A stretch of DNA of 64,000 nucleotides from Deltaproteobacteria bacterium (lineage in GTDB: Bacteria > Desulfobacterota > SM23-61). The notes beneath the pieces were generated by a model. That model was not told the DNA's origin, ran no database searches, and was given only the letters and a program-made list of their open reading frames with translations. Below, piece by piece: positions 3,395 through 61,687 of the stretch (position 1 is its first letter; each line of letters opens with the position of its first letter). Where the stretch lies: positions 1 through 64,000 of the forward strand of contig VGSF01000003.1 of the NCBI GenBank assembly GCA_016875165.1, in the 5' to 3' direction. The position numbers and the translations under genes are program-made.

Positions 3395-3500
3395 AAACCT
3401 TTCGTAACCCCCCTTACCCCCCCTTAAGGTAAGGGGGGAATGGGGGGGTATAAAAGGGGTAATCCCTCCCTTTAGCAAAGGGAGGTCAGGAGGGATTTTA
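3395..3500. repeat. Cluster of G/C-rich palindromes
   Basis: Several short inverted repeats follow each other, for example CCCCCCTTAAGGTAAGGGGGG near 3418-3438 and CCTCCCTTTAGCAAAGGGAGG near 3466-3486. The arms are homopolymer-like C and G runs around an AT-rich centre. They resemble the units at 3574-3619, 3978-4022, 4101-4222 and 4299-4380. Units vary in sequence and have no equal spacers, so this is not a CRISPR array. Some could act as terminators for the methyltransferase transcript. Confidence 0.7.
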
Positions 3501-3573
3501 CAAATCGATGTCTTTTCTATTTTGAGACCGTTAATAAGTATCAAGTTCTTCCGGCTTTTGTGTGGGTGCTTTC

Positions 3574-3619
3574 TCCCTCTATTCCCCCCTTAAGTTAAGG
3601 GGGGATGAAGGGGGGTTAT
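3574..3619 (-). repeat. Inverted repeat, left boundary of DUF559 unit
   Basis: The reverse complement of this stretch matches 3977-4022 almost base for base: TAACCCCCCTTCATCCCCCC, a TTAA palindrome, a G run and AATAGAGGG, with one substitution and one 1-base indel. The two copies therefore enclose the DUF559 gene as long inverted repeats. Confidence 0.8.
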
Positions 3620-3628
3620 GGTGGAGTT

Positions 3629-4006
3629 ATGAAATTCCTTCGGAATGATCCAGCATTAAAGCAACGGCGACGGGAACTGAGGCGTAATCAGACTGAGGCG
3701 GAGAAGGTCCTTTGGGCGCACCTCCGAAGCAAGCAGTTCTATGGAATGAAATTTTTCCGCCAATACAGCATCGGGCCTTATATTTTGGACTTTTACTGTC
3801 CGACCATAAAACTCGCAGTAGAGGTGGACGGCGGGCAGCATAACCAGTGCGAGCGTAAGGAGTATGATGCGGTTCGTTCAGAATATCTGAAGGCAAAGGG
3901 GATCGAGGTCATACGGTTTTGGGACAATGAGGTATTGCTTGATATGGAAAGCGTCCTGTCTGCACTGGGCCTGAAAGTAACCCCCCTTCATCCCCCCTTA
4001 ATTTAA
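3629..4006 (+). CDS. DUF559-family endonuclease-like protein
   Basis: The 125-residue protein matches the DUF559 family, small proteins related to the Vsr/PD-(D/E)XK nuclease fold. It has the family start (RRRELRRNQTEAEKVLW), then GMKFFRQYSIGPYILDFYCP, then EVDGGQH carrying the acidic and His residues expected at the active site, then GIEVIRFWDNEV. I chose the ATG at 3629; an in-frame ATG at 3605 would add eight residues encoded by the boundary repeat. The last residues (TPLHPPLI) and the stop codon lie inside the right boundary repeat. The gene separates the methyltransferase from its restriction partner. No target or partner is known for the family; a DNA-cleaving role is inferred from the fold. 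Confidence 0.85.
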   Translation: MKFLRNDPALKQRRRELRRNQTEAEKVLWAHLRSKQFYGMKFFRQYSIGPYILDFYCPTIKLAVEVDGGQHNQCERKEYDAVRSEYLKAKGIEVIRFWDNEVLLDMESVLSALGLKVTPLHPPLI

Positions 4007-4022
4007 GGGGTGGAATAGAGGG
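3977..4022 (+). repeat. Inverted repeat, right boundary of DUF559 unit
   Basis: Partner of 3574-3619 in the opposite orientation. It encodes the C-terminal residues and stop codon of the DUF559 gene, so gene and repeat are physically merged. Confidence 0.8.
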
Positions 4023-4100
4023 GGTTTATACTTATGTTAAGGGGAGATTACGCATTAAATACCCGGAGGAACCAAGTATCAATTTTGCTGTTTGAAGTCA

Positions 4101-4222
4101 TTTTGAAAAATCCCTCCCCACCTCCCTTTGCCAAAGGGAGGAGAAACATTTCCCCCTTTTGACAAAGGGGGATAATACTAAGCTCTCCCCTTTAGCAAAG
4201 GGGAGTTAGAGGGAATTTTGTC
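4101..4222. repeat. Three consecutive G/C-rich palindromes
   Basis: Three hairpin units lie end to end (CCTCCCTTTGCCAAAGGGAGG near 4121-4141, CCCCCTTTTGACAAAGGGGG near 4152-4171, CTCCCCTTTAGCAAAGGGGAG near 4185-4205), enclosed by outer arms of the AATCCCTCCC/GGGAATTTT type. This fills most of the gap between the DUF559 gene and the restriction-gene remnant; no coding sequence is seen here. Confidence 0.7.
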
Positions 4223-4298
4223 AAAATGTTTTCACTCAATTAGAGTTTTATTAAGAATCTCAAAATAGTCCATACATGGCGGCCATCAATACAAAGAC

Positions 4299-4380
4299 TC
4301 ATAACCCCACCTAACCTCCCCTTATCTTAAGGGGAGGTACATACCCCCTCTTAAATTAAGAGGAGGAAAGGGGGAGTTAA
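4299..4380. repeat. G/C-rich palindrome pair before the restriction-gene remnant
   Basis: Two more units of the same kind (CCTCCCCTTATCTTAAGGGGAGG near 4315-4337 in outline, and CCCTCTTAAATTAAGAGG near 4345-4362). The 3' arm runs to within about 10 bp of the ATG at 4388, where a normal ribosome binding site would be expected and none is seen. Confidence 0.6.
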
Positions 4381-11269: not shown

Positions 11270-11297
11270 GATCGTCCTCCCGACTCAAAGATAAGGT

Positions 11298-14606: not shown

Positions 14607-16601
14607 CTATCTATATTCCATCTCCCTTTCTTCCAGGGATTTTATCCGGTCCCGCAGGCCCGCTGCTTTTTCAAAATCAAGCTGGGCTGCGGCTTCGCGC
14701 ATCTCTTTTTTCAGGCGGGACACCAGTTTGGGAATCTCAAAGAGGGAGACATAATCGCCGGGCTGCTCGGCAGTTAGGGGAACAGTAACATAGTCGGCCT
14801 CGTAGATGGATTGCAAGATATCCGGGATGGCCTTCTTGACGGTCTCGGGCGTGATCCGCTGCTTGCGGTTATAGGCCTCCTGGATTTTCCGCCGCCGGAA
14901 AGTTTCCTCGATGGCCCTCCTCATTGAATTCGTGACCTGGTCGGCATAGAGAATCACCTGCCCGGAGACATTCCGGGCAGTCCTCCCGAAGGTCTGGATA
15001 AGGGAAGTTTCCGAACGTAAAAAGCCTTCTTTATCCGCGTCCAGAATAGCTACCAGGGAGACTTCCGGCAGGTCCAGCCCTTCGCGCAGCAGATTGATGC
15101 CGATGAGAACGTCGAATTTTCCCAGGCGCAGGTCGCGGATAATCTCCATCCGTTCCAGGGTGTGCACGTCGGAATGCAAATACTTGACCTTTAAGCCGAG
15201 TTCGGCATAGTACGCAGTGAGGTCTTCGGCCATCCGCTTGGTCAGGGTGGTAACCAAAACGCGCTCTCCTCTGGCCGCGCGGGCGCGGATCTCGCCCAGG
15301 AGATCATCCACCTGATAGCGGGCCGGTTTAACTTCCACCTTAGGGTCTATAAGTCCGGTGGGGCGGATGATCTGTTCAACGATGCGGCCCTGCGCCTTCT
15401 CAAGTTCGTAACCTGCCGGCGTAGCCGAAACATAGATCACCCGGGGCACGCGAGGCTGGAATTCTGCAAATGAAAGGGGGCGGTTGTCCAGGGCCGAAGG
15501 CAGGCGGAACCCGTAATCTACCAGGGTCTCCTTGCGCGTGCGGTCACCCCAGTACATGCCATTGAGCTGCGGGACAGTGATGTGACTCTCATCGATGAAA
15601 ACCAGGATGTCTTTGGGAAAATAGTCCAGAAGCGTGTATGGGGGATCTCCGGGTTTCCGCCCATCCAGGTGCCGGGAATAATTCTCAATCCCCGTGCAGT
15701 AACCCATCTCCTTAAGCATCTCGATGTCAAAGTTGGTGCGCTGTTCCAGCCTCTGGGCTTCCAGGAGCTTCCGCTGGGAATGTAGCTGTTCCAGGCGCTC
15801 GGCCAGCTCCTGCCGGATGGACTGGATGGACTGGCGCAACCGGTCCTGCGGGGTGACGTAGTGGCTTCCGGGAAAGATGTACACATGCCGCAGTTTGCGC
15901 AAAACTTTTCCTCGCAGCGGGTCGATCTCCGAGATGGACTCCACCAGGTCCCCGAAAAATTCTACCCGGATGGCCTTGTCCTCTTCGTAGGCCGGAAATA
16001 TTTCCAGCACGTCGCCGCGCACGCGGAAGGCGCCGCGGTGAAAGTCATAATCGTTACGCTGGTACTGGATTTGCACCAGACGGGCCAGGACGTCATCCCG
16101 GGAGACTTCCTTTTGATCTTCGACCAGGACGATCATCCCCTGGTAGGCTTCTGGCGAGCCTAATCCGTAGATGCAGGATACCGAAGCCACCACAATGACA
16201 TCCCGCCGGGTAAGGACGGAGTGTGTGGCTGAATGGCGCATCTTGTCGATCAGGTCATTAATGGATGCGTCCTTCTCGATGTAGGTGTCGGTTGTGGGGA
16301 GGTAGGCTTCCGGCTGGTAGTAATCGTAGTAGCTGACGAAGTATTCCACGGCGCTTTCGGGGAAAAGAGCGCGAAACTCCTGGAAGAGTTGGGCCGCCAG
16401 TGTTTTGTTAGGGGCGATGACCAGCGTGGGTTTCTGGACTTGCTCGATGACATTGGCCATGGTGAAAGTTTTGCCGGAGCCGGTAACGCCGAGAAGGACT
16501 TGATGGGGCTGACCCTGATTCACGCCCTGGGTGAGCTTCTTGATGGCCTGGGGCTGGTCGCCTTTGGGGGTGAATTCACAGATGATCTTGAAATCGGGCA
16601 T
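14607..16601 (-). CDS. uvrB: Excinuclease ABC subunit B
   Basis: UvrB is the damage-verifying helicase-like subunit of nucleotide excision repair. The 664-residue protein has Walker A GVTGSGKT (38-45), the damage-probing beta-hairpin region [11 protein letters not shown] (near 92-102), the DESH motif ([10 protein letters not shown]), helicase motif VI (QTFGRTARN) and the C-terminal UVR motif ([13 protein letters not shown]) that binds UvrC. Length and all motifs are normal. Confidence 0.97.
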
Positions 16602-17716: not shown

Positions 17717-17815
17717 AATCCTGGGGCCGGGAATTCATCAAGAACTTGATTAGACTACGCTTGCCAGTGTAGCAAGGAGGGAAAAAATAATCAAGCTGCC
17801 CCGTTGCCTTGCTCA

Positions 17816-18097
17816 CCTTCACTTTTCAATAAATTGATGAATTCATGGTAATAGACGAAGCCCGGACGGGAGGGGGATGAAAGAGGGAGCACCGGCGGGA
17901 AAAAGATTGGACAATAGCCGTACTTTTCTTCCGCAAAGAAAAGGCGGGATCGAAGGAGGGCAGGGCATCTTCGGCGGAAGCCCCGCCCTTACCCATGAAA
18001 GGAATACTGCTTTGTGCTCCTGAGAGATTCCCCCTCCCGTCCGGGCCGGGTTCTGACCATCATCCTGAAATCATGAACCAAAATGGAAAGTGAAGGT
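17816..18097. repeat. 282-bp element with CCTTCAC ends
   Basis: Ends CCTTCACTTTTCA and TGGAAAGTGAAGG are inverted. The first 26 bp match, with one mismatch, the reverse complement of 19304-19329, and 17857-17890 matches the reverse complement of 18943-18976 with one mismatch in 34. It is thus a dispersed element with a second copy at 18943-19329. No coding frame is seen. Confidence 0.65.
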
Positions 18098-18116
18098 GGG
18101 CGCCCATTAAAGATTG

Positions 18117-18227
18117 GTAACACTTTAGTTCTTTGAAGAAAGGTGTGTCATTAGGGCCAAGGGAATCCAGGGCCCGGGGGCCAAACAGAGACCTTGCCGC
18201 CATTTTTTCAAAACTCTAAACTGATAC
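18117..18227. mobile_element. GTAAC-family MITE, copy 1 (111 bp)
   Basis: Begins GTAACACTTTAG and ends CTAAACTGATAC, imperfect inverted repeats of about 25 bp. AAAGATTG occurs directly on both sides (18109-18116 and 18228-18235), a perfect 8-bp target duplication. This is the shortest copy; it keeps AGGGCCCGGGGGCC but lacks most of the shared core. Confidence 0.85.
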
Positions 18228-18324
18228 AAAGATTGGCAACCGGGGATCTGCCAAAAACCTCCGGGATGACCCAAACAACAACGGAAATTTTAGAAACAAA
18301 ACAAATGGATGCTTTACAGGATGG

Positions 18325-18783
18325 TCAATCTTTGGGGGGGAAGGTGGCTCTGCCTACGGGAAAAGCAGGGGAGGCTCCCATGAGCGTGGCCAGGAAATCA
18401 AAGAGAGATTTAAAAAAACGTGTTGGAAAAGAGGCGGAAGGGAGATTTTCGAATTTTTCATTCAGCGCCTGGTTTCTTTTAGCCTCCATCTGGTTTTGGT
18501 AGGCGGCGATGACATCGGTTGGATCCAGGTGGATGAACCTGGCATAGTTGCGCAGAAAGCCGCGGATAAAAGCCTCCGCCGGCAGAAGATGGAATTGGTC
18601 TTTTTCTAAGGCTTGCAGGGTTGAAAGCCGAATCCGGGTGATGCTGGCCACAGATTCAAGGGAAATGTTCTTTGCTTCCCTCTGACTCTTAAGGTATTGA
18701 CCGACTGTCAACCTTCCATCTTTCATACCTTCCTCCGCTTGCGGATTCAAGCTTAACAGTTGATGGTTCATCTTTTTTTGCAT
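18325..18783 (-). CDS. RodZ-like helix-turn-helix protein
   Basis: Residues 25-95 carry the HTH_25 domain typical of RodZ-type proteins (TVGQYLKSQREAKNISLESVA, then RLSTLQALEKDQF, then FIRGFLRNYARFIHLDP). RodZ normally continues with a transmembrane helix and a periplasmic domain. Here the 152-residue protein ends with a moderately hydrophobic stretch (FFKSLFDFLATLMG) and 20 more residues, so it is short for the family and may be truncated by the neighbouring repeats. A role in cell shape or as a DNA-binding protein is possible but unproven. Confidence 0.7.
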   Translation of the reverse strand: MQKKMNHQLLSLNPQAEEGMKDGRLTVGQYLKSQREAKNISLESVASITRIRLSTLQALEKDQFHLLPAEAFIRGFLRNYARFIHLDPTDVIAAYQNQMEAKRNQALNEKFENLPSASFPTRFFKSLFDFLATLMGASPAFPVGRATFPPKD

Positions 18784-18942
18784 AAAACGGGCCAGCGTTG
18801 TTATTAAGATTCGATGAAAACGTGTTTTTAAAATTTAATTTTGATTACAGGGAGTTATATGCAATTAGGCGATGACCAATTTTAATTTAAAGACCACTCC
18901 TTTTCCTGCAGTGTTCAAAAATGTGAAAGTCCCCTTCCCTCC

Positions 18943-19329
18943 GCTCCCTCTTTCCTCCCCCTCCCGTCCGGGCTTCGCCTATCACTGTGAATTCATCAAT
19001 CTGCTTTTCCATTTGAATCATGATGTTGTTAAACACAGCTAATATCGGGGCTCGGGGGCCAGGGGGCTGAGCGCCGGCAGCATCGGCTGGGGGAAACCCT
19101 TGAAGGAAGGGAGTGGCTGGGTTTCCGCATATTGAAGCGGGGGCTCCTTCCCGCCTAATCCATGGAAAGCCGAGCGCCTCATGATGCCAAGCCCGCCGAG
19201 GCGGGACATGGCCCCCGAGTCTGAGAAAGACACCGGTAACGATAACTCTCAAACAAACTGATTCCTAAACAACAGGTTAACATGAGTCAAATGGGAAAGC
19301 CTATTCATCAATTTATTGCAAAGTGAAGG
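18943..19329. repeat. Second copy of the CCTTCAC element, interrupted
   Basis: Parts of the 17816 element appear in opposite orientation at 18943-18976 and 19304-19329. In the first copy the corresponding segments are about 15 bp apart; here they are over 300 bp apart because another element (19001-19302) sits between them. The rest of the 18784-19574 gap shows no gene. Confidence 0.6.
19001..19302. mobile_element. 302-bp nested element with 10-bp duplication
   Basis: ATTCATCAAT flanks both sides (18991-19000 and 19303-19312). The ends are inverted and imperfect: CTGCTTTTCCATTTGAATCA at the left, and AGGCTTTCCCATTTGACTCA when read inward on the complementary strand from the right. The interior contains GCGCCGGCAGCATCGG and GCGCCTCATGATGCCAAGC, related to the core of the GTAAC-family elements although the ends differ. 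Confidence 0.7.
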
Positions 19330-19574: not shown

Positions 19575-21459
19575 ATAGGGGTAGGAACGATGCATTGAAT
19601 TGCATCGCCCCTCCCTCCGAACCGGACTGGCGGATTTCCCGCATCCGGCTCTCCAGTCGGTGGTTTTACCTCGTTGAGGGCTGGAGCAATTTGTGATGGG
19701 CTTCCACAAGGCTGAAAAGCCCATTTTCCCGAAAGAATTTGTTTGGCCAGCGAATATGATCCATATTGCCACTGATACCTTTCAACCCTTTGCTGCGCTT
19801 CCGCAAGATGCTGCGCAGTCGACGCCTGATCCATCCGTCGAGCGCCGGAAACGTCCACTTATGGCTGTGTTTGAAATACTCAAACCACCCCTTAAGCGTT
19901 TGATTCACGTTCGCCGTGATGACAGACAGACTGTGTCCATTGCTGCGCCCGGTCTTGGAACGGATGGCGTCTTTGAGCTTCTTCAGGCTCTTCTTACGCG
20001 GCCGACGTGTACCGCCCTCGAAGTGATACCCGAGAAAATCAAATCCTTGCCCAGGCTCAGCAGTGTCCACCACGCGGGTCTTTTCAGGGTGCAATGCCAG
20101 ACCCCTTTCTGTAATCAGTTGCTGCACCAGATGCAGGGCGTTGTGCGCCTCCGACTCGTCACGACACATGATGACAAAATCATCGGCATAGCGGATCATT
20201 TGAAAACCCGCCGCCTCCATCGCCTCATCAACAGGATGGAGGTAAAGGTTTGCCAACAGAGGGCTGATGACCGCTCCCTGGGGAGTTCCTTGCTCGGGAC
20301 TCCATCGAGACAACCCTTCCAGGATGTCCTGCCCGAGAAATCTCTCCGTCAAGTCCAGCAGGCGTCCGTCGGCGATATACCGGCCGACTTCCCCCATCAG
20401 TCCCTCATGGGGAATGCTGTCAAAATATGCCTTCAGATCGGCATCCACCACTTGGGTGTACCCGGCCTTCAACAGCCGGTCCACCTCCCGCAAGGCATCC
20501 TTGCATCCCCTTTTTGGCCTGAAACCATAGCTGTTTGGTCGAAACCGTATCTCGAAAATGGGCTCGATAACGAGTCGCATCGCCGCCTGCACCACCCGAT
20601 CCCGCACGGCGGGTATACCCAGAGGCCGCTTCTCCGTACTGCCAAGCTTGTCGATGTAAACGCGCTTGATCGGTCGCGGTCGGTAGTTCCCGGTGCGAAG
20701 CTCCTCTTCCAGTCTGGCCATGTTCTCCTTAAGGTTCTTCCCAAACTGCTCCACGCTTTCATGATCCGTCCCTGCACTGCCTCCGTTCCTTCTCACTGCC
20801 TGCCAGGCGGCTTGAAGGGTCGTTGGCCGGTACACCTTATCGATCAGACTGAGCCAAACTCCTCCTTTCACCCCCTTGTCGAGGGCCTCCAGCATGCGAT
20901 CCGTCCATATGGAGTGTTCCACCCAGCCCCAAGACCGAGCTTCTCCCGTTTGTTTAGCCGTCTCCGGCACTGCCACGGGTTTCGTTTCCCTTTCTATGGT
21001 CGGCACGCATCCACCTTCCTGCGCCCCTTCGCTCCACGGCCGTTACACCGCTTCTTCACTACTACGGACGCTCTGACTCCTGCCCGGCCGGCTCTTCGTA
21101 CCCTTATCAGGGGCAGTGAACACCCTTCTTGTTCCGGACAGGTCTCCCTGGTTCACATCGCACGACCTTCCATACATCCCGTCATCAAACACCTGACGCG
21201 CCCTGCCATCGCTTCTCCGCTGCCCACCCAGCGTGACAGGCTTCCCGGGGTCTTTTCCCCGGGTCTGGACTTCGCCCTGAATCCGCAGGCTCGTCGCTAC
21301 GCACGGCCGAATCATGTTCGTTATCCTACGGGCTGCATGTTCGCCTCTGGTTGCTCTCCACCCCGCCTCACGGCGACGCAGTTGCCGTCGGCTACCGGGG
21401 GTGGGCATCCCCCGAGAGAGGACTTGCACCTCTCAAATCGCGCCTGCTCCCAGGCGCAC
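19575..21459 (-). mobile_element. Group II intron, probably class IIC
   Basis: Read on the minus strand, the intron begins GTGCGCC at 21459. It encodes a reverse transcriptase/maturase and ends about 85 bp after a recognisable domain V: GAGCCGGATGCGG, GAAA-type region, then CAGTCCGGTTC (19625-19657). Domain VI and a terminal AT lie near 19575. The 5' exon directly upstream is ATTCCGGC-GGAA-GCCGGAAT followed by CC, a terminator-like hairpin of the kind class IIC introns use as insertion site. The intron splits a TGATGA/TCATCA element. The boundaries are exact to within a few bases at the 3' end. Confidence 0.88.
19666..21006 (-). CDS. Group II intron reverse transcriptase/maturase
   Basis: The 446-residue protein has the reverse transcriptase blocks PLGIPAVRDRVVQAA, DADLKAYFD (188-196), QGTPQG (239-244) and catalytic YADD (273-276). 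The maturase domain (LKGWFEYFKHS) follows. It ends with SLVEAH and no HNH endonuclease domain, as in class IIC. It should promote splicing of its host RNA and, by reverse transcription, insertion at new hairpins. All catalytic residues are present, so the intron may be active. A long plus-strand frame over the same region is a shadow. Confidence 0.95.
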   Translation of the reverse strand: MPTIERETKPVAVPETAKQTGEARSWGWVEHSIWTDRMLEALDKGVKGGVWLSLIDKVYRPTTLQAAWQAVRRNGGSAGTDHESVEQFGKNLKENMARLEEELRTGNYRPRPIKRVYIDKLGSTEKRPLGIPAVRDRVVQAAMRLVIEPIFEIRFRPNSYGFRPKRGCKDALREVDRLLKAGYTQVVDADLKAYFDSIPHEGLMGEVGRYIADGRLLDLTERFLGQDILEGLSRWSPEQGTPQGAVISPLLANLYLHPVDEAMEAAGFQMIRYADDFVIMCRDESEAHNALHLVQQLITERGLALHPEKTRVVDTAEPGQGFDFLGYHFEGGTRRPRKKSLKKLKDAIRSKTGRSNGHSLSVITANVNQTLKGWFEYFKHSHKWTFPALDGWIRRRLRSILRKRSKGLKGISGNMDHIRWPNKFFRENGLFSLVEAHHKLLQPSTR

Positions 21460-35695: not shown

Positions 35696-35712
35696 TATAA
35701 ATAAGGAAAAGT

Positions 35713-35981
35713 GTATCAATTTCGCGGTTTGAAAAAGTGGGTTGACCACCTTTGTTAAGGCCCGGGGGCCTGGGCGGAACGCGCCGGAAGCATCGGCCGG
35801 GGTGCCCCTTGCCCACGAAGAACCCCGCGCGTTTCCGCCGGAGGAGGCGGGGGGACTTTTTCCCCGCCCCACTCGCGAAGAAATCAGCGCCTTATGATTC
35901 CAAGCGGGCCGTCCAGGCCTCCGGGCCACGGATTCCCCCGGCCCTTACGCCCCACCTCTTTTCAAAGGGCTAAAGTGTTAC
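35713..35981. mobile_element. GTAAC-family MITE, copy 2 (269 bp)
   Basis: Begins GTATCAATTTCGCGGTTTGA and ends TTTTCAAAGGGCTAAAGTGT-TAC. GGAAAAGT flanks both sides exactly (35705-35712 and 35982-35989), an 8-bp target duplication; the right copy overlaps the dxs stop codon region. The interior has the shared core GCGCCGGAAGCATCGG and GCGCCTTATGATTCCAAGC, and almost the whole element can fold on itself. Confidence 0.88.
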
Positions 35982-35988
35982 GGAAAAG

Positions 35989-37860
35989 TTAAAAGAAGGT
36001 TTTTACCGCCCGATAAATTCCTTGGGCATCGATGCCGTATTTTTGCCTCAAAAAATCCTGAGGCCCATGTTCCACGAAAGTGTCCGGAATTCCCAGTCGT
36101 TTAACTTGCACAGAATGAATCCCCGTTCTTTCCAGAAGCTCTAATACCGCGCTGCCGAATCCTCCTTGCAGGGCATTCTCTTCTACCGTAATAACCTTCT
36201 GAATCCCGGAGGTGAGGGAGCAGATGAGCTCTTCATCCAGAGGTTTGACAAATCTGGCATTAACCACCGTAGCCTTCACGCCAAGTTTTTCCAACCGGAG
36301 GGCAGCCTCCAATGCCGGCCGAACTGTGGAGCCGATGGCCAGGATAACAACATCTCCCCCGCGCTCCAGAACCTCAGCCTTACCGATAGGCAATTCTTTT
36401 AATTCCGCATCCAGATGTCCGCTCCAGCCATTTCCCCGGGGATAACGTAAAGACACGGGCTGGCCGCAATTTACCGCGGCCTTGAGCATGTGCTGCAGCT
36501 CATTTTCATCTTTGGGGGCCATAACAATGAGATGGGGAATATGGCGCAGATAGGAAAAATCGAAAAGGCCATGATGGGTCGGCCCATCCGACCCGACGAT
36601 TCCACCGCGGTCCATGGCCAGGACCACAGGAAGTTTCTGCAGGCAGACATCGTGCAGGATTTGATCGTAGGCCCGCTGCATGAAAGTCGAGTAAACCGCA
36701 ACCACCGGAATGAATCCTTCAGCCGCCAAACCTGCGGCAAAGGTAATGCCGTGCTGCTCGGCGATCCCCACGTCGAAGAACCGATCGGGAAATTCCGTGG
36801 CAAAAATTTCCAGGCCTGTACCCTGGGGCATGGCGGCCGTGATGCCGACCAACCGGGGATTCTCCCTGGCCAGCTTTACCATGGTTTGCCCGAAGACCTG
36901 CGTGTAGGAAAGGGATTCACCCTCGGGCTGGAGGATTTCCCCTGATTCAGGATGGAAAGGTCCGACCCCGTGAAAAGTTACGGGATCCTTTTCCGCAGGT
37001 GGGTACCCTTTGCCCTTGGTCGTAATGACATGGACCAGAATCGGGCCGTGGAGTTTCTTGATGTTGCGAAAGTTTTCGACGAGCGCCTCGATCTTGTGGC
37101 CGGGCAAAGGGCCAACGTACTTGAACCCCAGCTCTTCAAAAAGCAATCCCGGAAGAAAGAATCCCTTGAGGGACTCCTCGGCGTATTTTGCCCATTTCAA
37201 GGCTGCGTCCCCTATGCCGGGCAGGTTTTTGAGAAAGCCCTTGATCTCGTCCCGGAAGCGGGTGGCGAATTGTCCGGTCAACAAGCGGTTCAGGTAGGAA
37301 GAGAGCGCGCCGACATTGGGAGAAATGGAATGTTCATTATCGTTTAGGATAACGGTCAAGTCCTTATCCATTGCTCCGGCCTGGTTTAATCCTTCAAAGG
37401 CTAAGCCGGCGGTCATGGACCCATCGCCGATGACGGCGATGACTTTACGGCTCTCGCCCTTAAGACAGCGGGCCTGAACCATTCCCAGGGCCGCTGAGAT
37501 GGATGTGCTGGAATGCCCTGTCCCGAAAGCATCGTAAGGGCTCTCCTCCCGGCGCGGAAACCCGCAGATTCCCCCGCACTGCCGCAAGGTATGAAAATTT
37601 TTCCTCCGGCCGGTGATGAGCTTGTGGGCGTAGGTTTGGTGGCCGACGTCCCAGATCAGGCGGTCGTCCGGAGTGTCGAAAACATAATGAAGGACCAGGG
37701 TCAGCTCCACCACCCCCAGGCTGGAAGCCAAGTGTCCGCCTGTTTGGGAAACCGTGCTGAGGATTTCCTCGCGGATCTCCTGGGCCAACATTGGCAGGTC
37801 CGCAAGGCGCATCTTACGCAGGTCCGCCGGGCTATCGATCAGGTTGAGCAAGCGTCCCAT
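35989..37860 (-). CDS. dxs: 1-deoxy-D-xylulose-5-phosphate synthase
   Basis: First enzyme of the MEP isoprenoid pathway: thiamine-diphosphate condensation of pyruvate with glyceraldehyde 3-phosphate. The 623-residue protein has [16 protein letters not shown], the ThDP motif [18 protein letters not shown]...NDN, the transketolase pyrimidine domain ([17 protein letters not shown]) and the C-terminal domain ([17 protein letters not shown]). It directly abuts ispA (TGA then ATG), at the end of xseA-xseB-ispA-dxs. The MITE at 35713 touches its 3' end. Confidence 0.97.
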
Positions 37861-40528: not shown

Positions 40529-40760
40529 GTAACACTTTAGCTCTTTGAAAAAAGGTGTGTCACCAGGACCAAGGGATTCCAGGGCCCGGGGGCCAGACCG
40601 GCCCGCTTGGAATCATAAGGCGCGAAATAATTCGCTCTGCGCAAAGCGCTTGGCGCTAAGCGTCTTTATTGTTCAACCGATGCTTCCGGCGCGTTCCGGC
40701 CTGGCCCCCGGGCCCAAACAGAGGTGTTGCCGCCATTTTTTCAAAACTCTAAACTGATAC
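40529..40760. mobile_element. GTAAC-family MITE, copy 3 (232 bp)
   Basis: Begins GTAACACTTTAGCTCTTTGA and ends TCAAAACTCTAAACTGATAC. CTTTCTTT flanks both sides (40521-40528 and 40761-40768), an exact 8-bp target duplication. The core is in the opposite orientation to copy 2 (GCTTGGAATCATAAGGCGC, then CCGATGCTTCCGGCGCG), with a different inner loop (GCGCTTGGCGCTAAGCG region). It fills most of the gap between xseA and the lipid-kinase-like gene. Confidence 0.88.
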
Positions 40761-40773
40761 CTTTCTTTTTGTT

Positions 40774-41786: not shown

Positions 41787-42236
41787 GTAAAACTTTAACC
41801 CTTTGAAAAGAGATGGGACGTAAGGGCCGAGGGAATCCGTGGCCCGGAGGCCTGGACGGCCCGCTTGGAATCATAAGGCGCTGATTTCTTCGCGAGTGGG
41901 GCGGAGAAAATGCCCCCCGCCTCCTCCGGCGGAAGCACGCGGGGTTCTTCGTGGCAAACAGAAACCCGGCCGATGCTTCCGGCGCGTTCTGCCCAGGCCC
42001 CCGGGCCTTAAGAAAGGTGGTCAAACCACTTTTTCAAACCGCTAAATTTGATGGCTTCTTAAAAAGTCGTCACTCTGGCCTGCCTGTGCCTGGCAGACAG
42101 GTGAAAACCAGAGTCCAGAGGTTTGATAACTCCTTGAAATAACTGGATTCCGGCTGGAGTTTATCCCGATGAAAATCGGGGCCGGAATGACGGGGAAAGG
42201 GGCTTTCAGACTTTTTACGAGTTCATCAAATTTTAC
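41787..42236. mobile_element. GTAAC-family MITE, copy 4, split by a nested repeat
   Basis: Begins GTAAAACTTTAACCCTTTGA. The sequence runs to GCTAAAT at 42041-42047, is interrupted by a TGATGA/TCATCA element, and finishes with TTTTAC at 42231-42236. AAGAATAG on the left (41779-41786) and AAGAATTG on the right (42237-42244) match in 7 of 8 positions, as expected for the target duplication of the whole element. The core (CTTGGAATCATAAGGCGC, CCGATGCTTCCGGCGCG) is present. Confidence 0.8.
42048..42230. repeat. TGATGA/TCATCA-type element (copy 3), nested in a MITE
   Basis: Begins TTGATGGCTTCTTAAAAAGT and ends ACTTTTTACGAGTTCATCAA. It contains two hairpin arms, CTGCCTGTGCCTGGCAGACA and ATCCCGATGAAAATCGGGG. 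It lies in reverse orientation to the copies at 47458 and 63042, to which it is very similar. It entered the GTAAC-family element near that element's right end, so it is the younger insertion. Confidence 0.75.
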
Positions 42237-42259
42237 AAGAATTGAAAGCAGGAGATAAA

Positions 42260-61376: not shown

Positions 61377-61388
61377 ACCAGAACTTTT

Positions 61389-61653
61389 GTAACAGTTTAG
61401 CGATTTGAAAAAATGGTATTAAAGCCTTTGTTGAGGGCCGGGGGTTAGAGCGGAACGCGCCGGAAGCATCGGTTGGGGTTCCGCTTGGCCACGAGGACAG
61501 AAGATCTTTTCCTCCGGAGGAGGCGGGGTTCTTGTCCGCCCCTTATGCGGAGATATAAGCGCCTTATGATTCCAAGCGTTCCGCTCTGGCCCCAGGCCCC
61601 TGGAATCCCTTGGCCTTTACAACACACCTTTTTTCAAAGAGAAAAAGTGTTAC
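61389..61653. mobile_element. GTAAC-family MITE, copy 5 (265 bp)
   Basis: Begins GTAACAGTTTAGCGATTTGA and ends TTCAAAGAGAAAAAGTGTTAC. GAACTTTT flanks both sides (61381-61388 and 61654-61661), an exact 8-bp target duplication. The core GCGCCGGAAGCATCGG and GCGCCTTATGATTCCAAGC is present in the same orientation as at 35713. The element lies between acs and the OFA transporter. Confidence 0.9.
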
Positions 61654-61687
61654 GAACTTTTTAATTTTTTTTAGGAGGCTAAATTTC

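Follow-up and report, generated by a model that had tools for sequence, protein, structure and literature searches.

The 64-kb window (the whole stretch of DNA analysed, 64,000 nucleotides) carries five copies of a short dispersed element, and it raises the question of what moved these copies and whether their ends and their interior have the same origin. The earlier note had described a MITE family with copies at 18117, 35713, 40529, 41787 and 61389, and re-reading of the sequence confirmed the coordinates and borders of all five, which have ends of the form GTAAC/GTATC..TTTAG..TTTGAAAA. The 8-bp target duplications claimed for them were also found, being perfect at four of the five copies and matching at 7 of 8 positions at the 41787 copy, which holds a nested element. 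The features are listed by window position, where R1 denotes the core model described further below.

17864..18042, minus strand: divergent core in a different frame, from the frame scan, 53.5 bits
18109..18116 (left) and 18228..18235 (right), plus strand: perfect 8-bp target duplication AAAGATTG of MITE copy 1
18117..18227, plus strand: MITE copy 1, 111 bp, ends GTAACACTTTAG / GTATCAGTTTAG
19049..19221, minus strand: core in a further frame, at about 18999-19304, 103.3 bits, adjoining the remnants of a second element
35705..35712 (left) and 35982..35989 (right), plus strand: perfect 8-bp target duplication GGAAAAGT of MITE copy 2
35713..35981, minus strand: MITE copy 2, 269 bp, A end at right
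35759..35927, minus strand: structured core in MITE copy 2, R1, 157.9 bits
40521..40528 (left) and 40761..40768 (right), plus strand: perfect 8-bp target duplication CTTTCTTT of MITE copy 3
40529..40760, plus strand: MITE copy 3, 232 bp
40583..40714, plus strand: shortened core in MITE copy 3, R1, 87.1 bits
41779..41786 (left, AAGAATAG) and 42237..42244 (right, AAGAATTG), plus strand: target duplication of MITE copy 4, 7 of 8 positions
41787..42236, plus strand: MITE copy 4, split by the nested element, ends GTAAAACTTTAA / GTAAAATTTAG
41841..42007, plus strand: structured core in MITE copy 4, R1, 166.3 bits
42050..42227, no strand given: nested element in MITE copy 4, about 178 bp, of another family with GATGG..TAAAAAGTC ends (families D3 and I1)
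61381..61388 (left) and 61654..61661 (right), plus strand: perfect 8-bp target duplication GAACTTTT of MITE copy 5
61389..61653, minus strand: MITE copy 5, 265 bp, near the genome-wide majority form (266 bp)
61435..61599, minus strand: structured core in MITE copy 5, R1, 134.8 bits

The core of MITE copy 1 is mostly deleted and gave no match to R1. The nested element at 42050-42227 has its own direct repeat, AAATTT, on either side. For the core at 17864-18042, candidate ends ACCTTCACTTT.CA.TT lie near 17815 and 18097, and no duplication was found around this frame. In the region spanning 17815-19304, around the 18117 MITE, at least three different small elements are nested together, and two of them have divergent cores. 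Another dispersed family in the window has TTTGATGATCTCGTAAAAAGTC ends (families D1, D3, D4, D8 and D10-D12); it is present at 11293, 19497, 42044, 45851, 47453, 56359, 63037 and other positions, and one of its copies sits within the 41787 MITE. At 19575-19653 on the minus strand, Rfam RF00029 (group II intron domain V) matches at 54.4 bits, and a 446-aa ORF at 19666-21006, on the same strand and directly upstream of it, may encode the reverse transcriptase of this intron.

The size of the family was examined in the draft assembly of the uncultured host, which has 234 contigs and a length of 5.33 Mb, with a completeness of 99.18% and a contamination of 7.13%. As the earlier note had expected, the ends recur through the genome; the pattern GTAACACTTTAGNNNTTTGAAAAA with up to 2 mismatches gave 493 matches in the 5.33-Mb assembly and the same pattern written backwards gave 1. 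The number of five copies therefore holds for the window but is a large undercount of a family with hundreds of copies genome-wide. A BLAST search of the host with the copy at 61389 found 374 initial candidates, and the 40 that were scored were mostly 94-96% identical. When the 8-bp flanks were listed for 30 loci chosen on BLAST similarity alone, 16 had perfect repeats, 10 had one mismatch and 1 had two, so that 26 of the 30 agreed with at most one mismatch, while the other three (L002, L009 and L010) were unpaired under the pairing rule. A sample of seven contigs (805,954 bases with C7 in part, 15% of the genome) was then analysed. Strict pairing in this sample gave 35 elements with at most one duplication mismatch and 46 unpaired ends; no autonomous element was seen in it, the longest strictly paired element being 438 bp. 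A looser calling rule gave 51 elements of 97-461 bp in 806 kb, and 36 of these had duplications with at most one mismatch (22 perfect, 14 with one mismatch), as compared with 1 of 51 when the right flank was shifted 30 bp outward. Because the looser rule partly used the duplication, this contrast is biased upward and 26 of 30 is the fairer figure. Extrapolation from 51 elements per 806 kb puts the family at about 340 copies genome-wide. These elements are short, multi-copy and free of a transposase gene, and have terminal inverted repeats at their two ends, which are the features of a MITE. In an alignment of 64 copies (38 sample copies of 255-295 bp and 26 further BLAST loci), roughly half had an identity of 95% or more to the majority consensus, and the remainder went down to 40-55% and aligned poorly. 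The target duplications are 72% AT, against 49% in the sample, and show a palindromic preference near RAAWWTTY. ORFs of at least 100 aa make up 84% of the sample, and 12 of the 51 insertion points lie inside them, 11 of the 12 being no more than 60 bp away from an ORF boundary. The 266-bp MITE had no match in plasmids and phages at E 1e-3.

The insertion sites were compared with those of sister genomes, where the earlier note had taken empty sites retaining both repeats as evidence against transposition; the empty sites were found to hold a single target copy. At the 41787 site the element is absent from the congeners G001 and G002, and the target AAGAATAG is single. In the sister genome G003, the sites corresponding to C5:15861 and C1:48448 of the host (G000) are empty with one target copy, and an insertion found only in G003 (L283:15666-15941, duplication AAAAATCC) has an empty site in G000. 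The insertion at C7:4464 is common to G000 and G003, and alignments continuing into the elements at C1:144551 and C5:13724 suggest two further shared insertions. The flanks of G000 and G003 are mostly 94-97% identical. As insertions differ between these sister species, transposition has been recent, and the polymorphic insertions of G000 and G003 provide a direct means to date and follow the process. At the 35713 site, G003 (L282, about 14983-15174) holds a different MITE with the same duplication GGAAAAGT; by our own count, the MITE ends are about 73% identical and the flanks about 97%. Independent insertion into a hot site or replacement of a whole element may account for this, and either one would be unusual.

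These observations bear on the possibility that the copies are dispersed palindromic repeats (REP/BIME-like, or terminators) that spread by recombination or gene conversion, without transposition. The interior is strongly palindromic (-118.7 kcal/mol for one 266-nt copy) and 39 of the 51 copies lie outside ORFs of at least 100 aa, as such repeats would; the duplications, however, differ in sequence (21 distinct among the 22 perfect ones), the empty sites carry one target copy, and hairpin propensity is lower at the insertion sites than at intergenic controls. The duplications and the empty sites refute this reading, which we regard as scarcely credible. Targeting of hairpins by the MITE itself, first suggested by inverted repeats beside all five window insertions, was also dropped, since the flanks of 42 insertion sites showed less structure than 420 control points in intergenic DNA.

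The ends were then used to look for the transposase. The earlier note had linked the MITE to the IS66 family and supposed a full-length IS66-like element elsewhere; the link is supported by 24-bp ends common to IS66 (PF03050) elements elsewhere in the phylum, but a full-length partner was not found in the host assembly. There, PF03050 gave 0 hits (control genomes were positive), DruA gave 0 hits, and the TnpC of the L248 element described below had no match at E 1. With the host assembly devoid of IS66, the mover would therefore be lost, unassembled or transient. A search for the MITE covered 198 genomes, the host and its relatives. Long matches were confined to the same genus and partial interior matches to the same family, whereas the last 24-26 bp of the MITE were found with 93-100% identity in other families. 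Across the phylum, the terminal inverted repeats (TIR) occurred with 0-1 mismatch in 17 of 395 genomes, and the reversed control occurred in none. In G143 (MAG Deltaproteobacteria bacterium CROMO_BS_46_3, JAGXTA01, from another family of the phylum), most of the ends examined are close to the edge of a contig (about 300 bp at most). An IS66 TnpC C-terminus adjoins the right ends, and the start of a DruA-like ORF adjoins the left ends; the TIR is common to both, and the left ends read GTAAC and the right ends GTAAC or GTATC. When the 8 bp flanking each of 13 left ends (12 in G143, 1 in G032) were paired with those flanking 13 right ends, 7 pairs matched as direct repeats against 0.0026 expected, and none in the inverted sense.

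A complete element of 2,364 bp was found in MAG Meg19_1012_Bin_230 (L248:2913-5276). It is bounded by GTAACAGTTTAGCTCTTTGAAAAA and GTAACACTTTAGCTCTTTGAAAAA, the right end being exact over 24 bp and the left agreeing at 23 of 24, and both ends begin with GTAA (GTAACAGTTTAG / GTAACACTTTAG). It encodes a DruA of 292 aa (PF14236, 6.8e-36) and a TnpC (PF03050 at 1.9e-37, zf-IS66, and NCBIfam IS66 NF033517 at 244.7 bits with a cut-off of 180); these were the only ORFs recognised, and neither tnpA nor tnpB was found within L248:2913-5276. The accessory genes tnpA and tnpB are usual, though not universal, in IS66. The flanks of this single complete copy (CAAAGATC/GAGTTTAT) did not match as a duplication. 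A DDE_Tnp_IS66 TnpC, GTAA ends and the 8-bp duplication of the seven G143 flank pairs together place the partner in IS66. At the A end, 24 of the first 26 bases agree between the MITE and this IS, and the two then diverge. As they have no visible common sequence beyond the TIR of about 24 bp, the MITE cannot be explained as this IS with its interior simply deleted. In other genomes the same two end types surround seemingly unrelated interiors, often with local palindromic repeats (for example L175, L176, L178, L179, L180, L185 and L198), which indicates that the ends are the unit recognised by the transposase and that the interior is free. Within the window, palindromic repeats CCCCCTTA..TAAGGGGG clustered at 3409-4375 resemble the interior of some IS66-ended MITEs of other genomes.

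Several other candidates for the partner were rejected. L149/L170 of G001 have a confirmed DruA and TnpC, with tnpB, as read, in the upstream DNA, but no matching TIR; the IS66 elements L150/L252 and L157/L257 (G001/G002) also had no matching TIR, and the DruA gene of G006 (L259) had no TIR. DruA-like genes (PF14236, Druantia family) were thus observed within or beside transposons at L248:3017-3895, L149:74-955 and L259:742-1620; their hosts are IS66 elements, except in L259, where the gene adjoins a large ORF of another kind, which is putatively transposase-like. In L157:58-2454, a 798-aa ORF combines a weak Cas4-like match, an RNase_H_2 domain and an IS66 transposase domain. Searches of the open-licence PMC literature found nothing that links IS66 with DruA or Druantia and no description of an IS66 MITE of the kind seen here. 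A transposase of another family (ISL3, IS1595 etc.) that uses GTAAC ends and 8-bp duplications by coincidence would agree with a host assembly devoid of IS66. The exact 24-bp end, however, is found at the borders of IS66 TnpC elements, in G143 and L248 at the least, and IS256, the sole other family searched as mover, is absent from the host (PF00872, 0 hits), which makes a mover from another family quite unlikely.

The partial interior matches led to elements having the same GC-rich core between other ends. The interior is a conserved structured core of about 166 nt, RNA or DNA, that is present in most copies and had not been remarked in the earlier note. An alignment of 11 cores (A1) had 37 pairs, 7 of which changed on both sides, and gave the 166-position model R1. 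In 395 phylum genomes, R1 matched 8 of 8 genomes of the host family and 0 of 387 others, under strict filters that may lose weak matches. In the sample, R1 gave 77 rows, consisting of 55 distinct cores and 22 weak echoes on the opposite strand (28-46 bits). Of these 55 cores, 40 lie between two IS66-type ends, 2 have one such end recognised and 13 occur in other frames. A larger alignment (A3) of 84 cores at E ≤1e-7 over the full 166 positions had 93.2% of its cells paired, against 36-57% with partners slid; 23 of the 37 pairs changed on both sides, and covariation was 0.209 against at most 0.059 with partners slid, in an alignment which, being fitted to the model, leans towards structure. Covariation within a palindrome can also arise by conversion between its arms. 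The motifs A.CAT.AGGC, GGGCGGG/CCCGCC, GCGGAA and CC.GCCGATGCT are kept in 28 representatives less than 80% identical to each other. When the strand of a possible RNA was examined, two pairs were found to be conserved wobbles, and elsewhere A-C exceeded G-U (23 vs 12 in the 28 representatives, 130 vs 29 in all 84 cores). A core acting as RNA on the strand shown would have an excess of G-U over A-C mismatches; the counts go the opposite way and do not favour that strand, and the core may be RNA or DNA. Rfam gave no gathering-level match on the window MITEs, and none over the elements of three loci at lax thresholds.

GC-rich palindromic DNA is known to yield spurious folding scores, and R1 also matches the opposite strand weakly, so the interiors might have been captured independently and resemble each other across end sets by chance. 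That is very improbable when 84 cores align over the full model with the motifs conserved in the representatives, covariation falls once partners are slid, and no genome outside the family matches. The ends that surround the core were checked individually at the following elements.

C6:73439-73749: GTAACCCTTCAGTCAC ends with AAGCCATC duplication
L303:1441-1741, in G001: GTAACCATTCAGTGA ends with AGCAAGGG duplication
C5:14514-14782: CTTGCCCCC.TTCACTT ends with 10-bp repeat GCGAAAAAGG
C7:51928-52225: the same ends with 10-bp repeat AAAAAGTCAG
C1:137722-138035: CTGACCGTCGATCACTTT ends with 9-bp duplication GTTTTTCGA
C1:112313-112619: GGATCATCTCCAAATTAGTT ends with 8-bp duplication TTTCATTT

Elsewhere the GGATCATCTCCAAATTAGTT ends have a duplication of 7 of 8 at C2:102499-102806 and of only 5 of 8 at C3:110579-110886, and a further end set in G004 (TAGTGTCGTGTYTCAGAAATAA, L125) showed no duplication. 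The core therefore occurs between five or more sets of ends whose duplications, of 8, 9 or 10 bp, were checked; the IS66-type ends are included in this count, and GTAACCCTTCAG and GTAACCATTCAG are treated as a single set. Core and ends are separate modules. Some elements contain two cores in opposite orientation (L319:1249-1702, L326:1501-1874 and L320:1465-1919), and the double cores of L319 and L320 are enclosed by ends like TTGCCCCCCTTCACTT. A single ancestral core-bearing MITE whose ends drifted gradually into the present sets would fit the partial likeness of the GTAACACTTTAG and GTAACCCTTCAG end sets and of the flanks adjoining the core. Against such drift, CTTGCCCCCCTTCACTT (10 bp), CTGACCGTCGATCACT (9 bp) and GGATCATCTCCAAATT (8 bp) seem to have no common origin and point to different transposases, and we consider it unlikely, while granting it some weight.

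These results together make it highly probable that the elements are non-autonomous IS66-type MITEs with TnpC as mover in trans and with a modular core and ends, which is the best explanation as a whole. In the proposed mechanism, the DDE transposase TnpC, of an IS66 subgroup in which a DruA-like gene would replace tnpA/tnpB, recognises the ends of about 24 bp (GTAACACTTTAGCTCTTTGAAAAA) and would insert the short element at AT-rich intergenic sites of RAAWWTTY preference, leaving the 8-bp duplication. TnpC would act in trans on the MITEs, whose ends are identical to those of an IS66 element, and the source IS would once have resided in the host and now be lost, unassembled or only transient. 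The ends would decide the mover, and the family-specific core would be a reusable passenger joined to several end sets. Only tentatively, and with some doubt, do we propose that the core of about 166 nt is a functional structured RNA or single-stranded-DNA module, selected in one family and packaged by several unrelated transposons. If selection does act on it, there exists in bacteria a class of structured passenger able to outlive the loss of any single transposase. The usual picture of a MITE is a shrunken copy of a single parental IS; here, the ends are patchy over the phylum and match an IS66 transposon, and the interior belongs to one family, covaries and is found with at least five end sets, so that the two have separate histories. 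What would surprise a specialist is this modular relation of a family-specific structured core to several transposon end sets. No record of it was found in the open-licence PMC literature and, as far as these searches show, conservation of a bacterial MITE interior apart from its ends would have no described precedent.

Geobacter uraniireducens was formerly classed as a deltaproteobacterium. Its MITE Chunjie (178-235 bp, 38 copies) resembles the present family in conserved ends, direct repeats and a mostly intergenic location, by description and not by sequence, and differs in having 38 copies with conserved ends, as described in a review (PMC10969869). TIMEs are likewise mosaic-building non-autonomous elements but, going by the title of the source, are of Tn3 type and not a conserved structured core reused among unrelated ends (PMC4133298). 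IS66 elements are reported to have 8-bp repeats and ends of 20-30 bp starting with GTAAGCG (PMC11946415); the elements described here agree with the family in GTAA ends, the 8-bp duplication and the partner's TnpC (PF03050 with zf-IS66). They differ in that the ends after GTAA read CACTTTAG and not GCG, the partner has a DruA-like gene without tnpA/tnpB, and the MITE itself is geneless. MITECca01 of Cardinium, with 169 copies making up 3.5% of the chromosome, is another high-copy and mostly intergenic bacterial MITE, but it is IS982-derived with an intact parental IS in the genome (PMC9769881), whereas the family here is IS66-type, its parent was not found, and by extrapolation it has about twice as many copies. 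The MITE family of the window is thus of a known kind, and it is unusual in its copy number and in a parent absent from the assembly.
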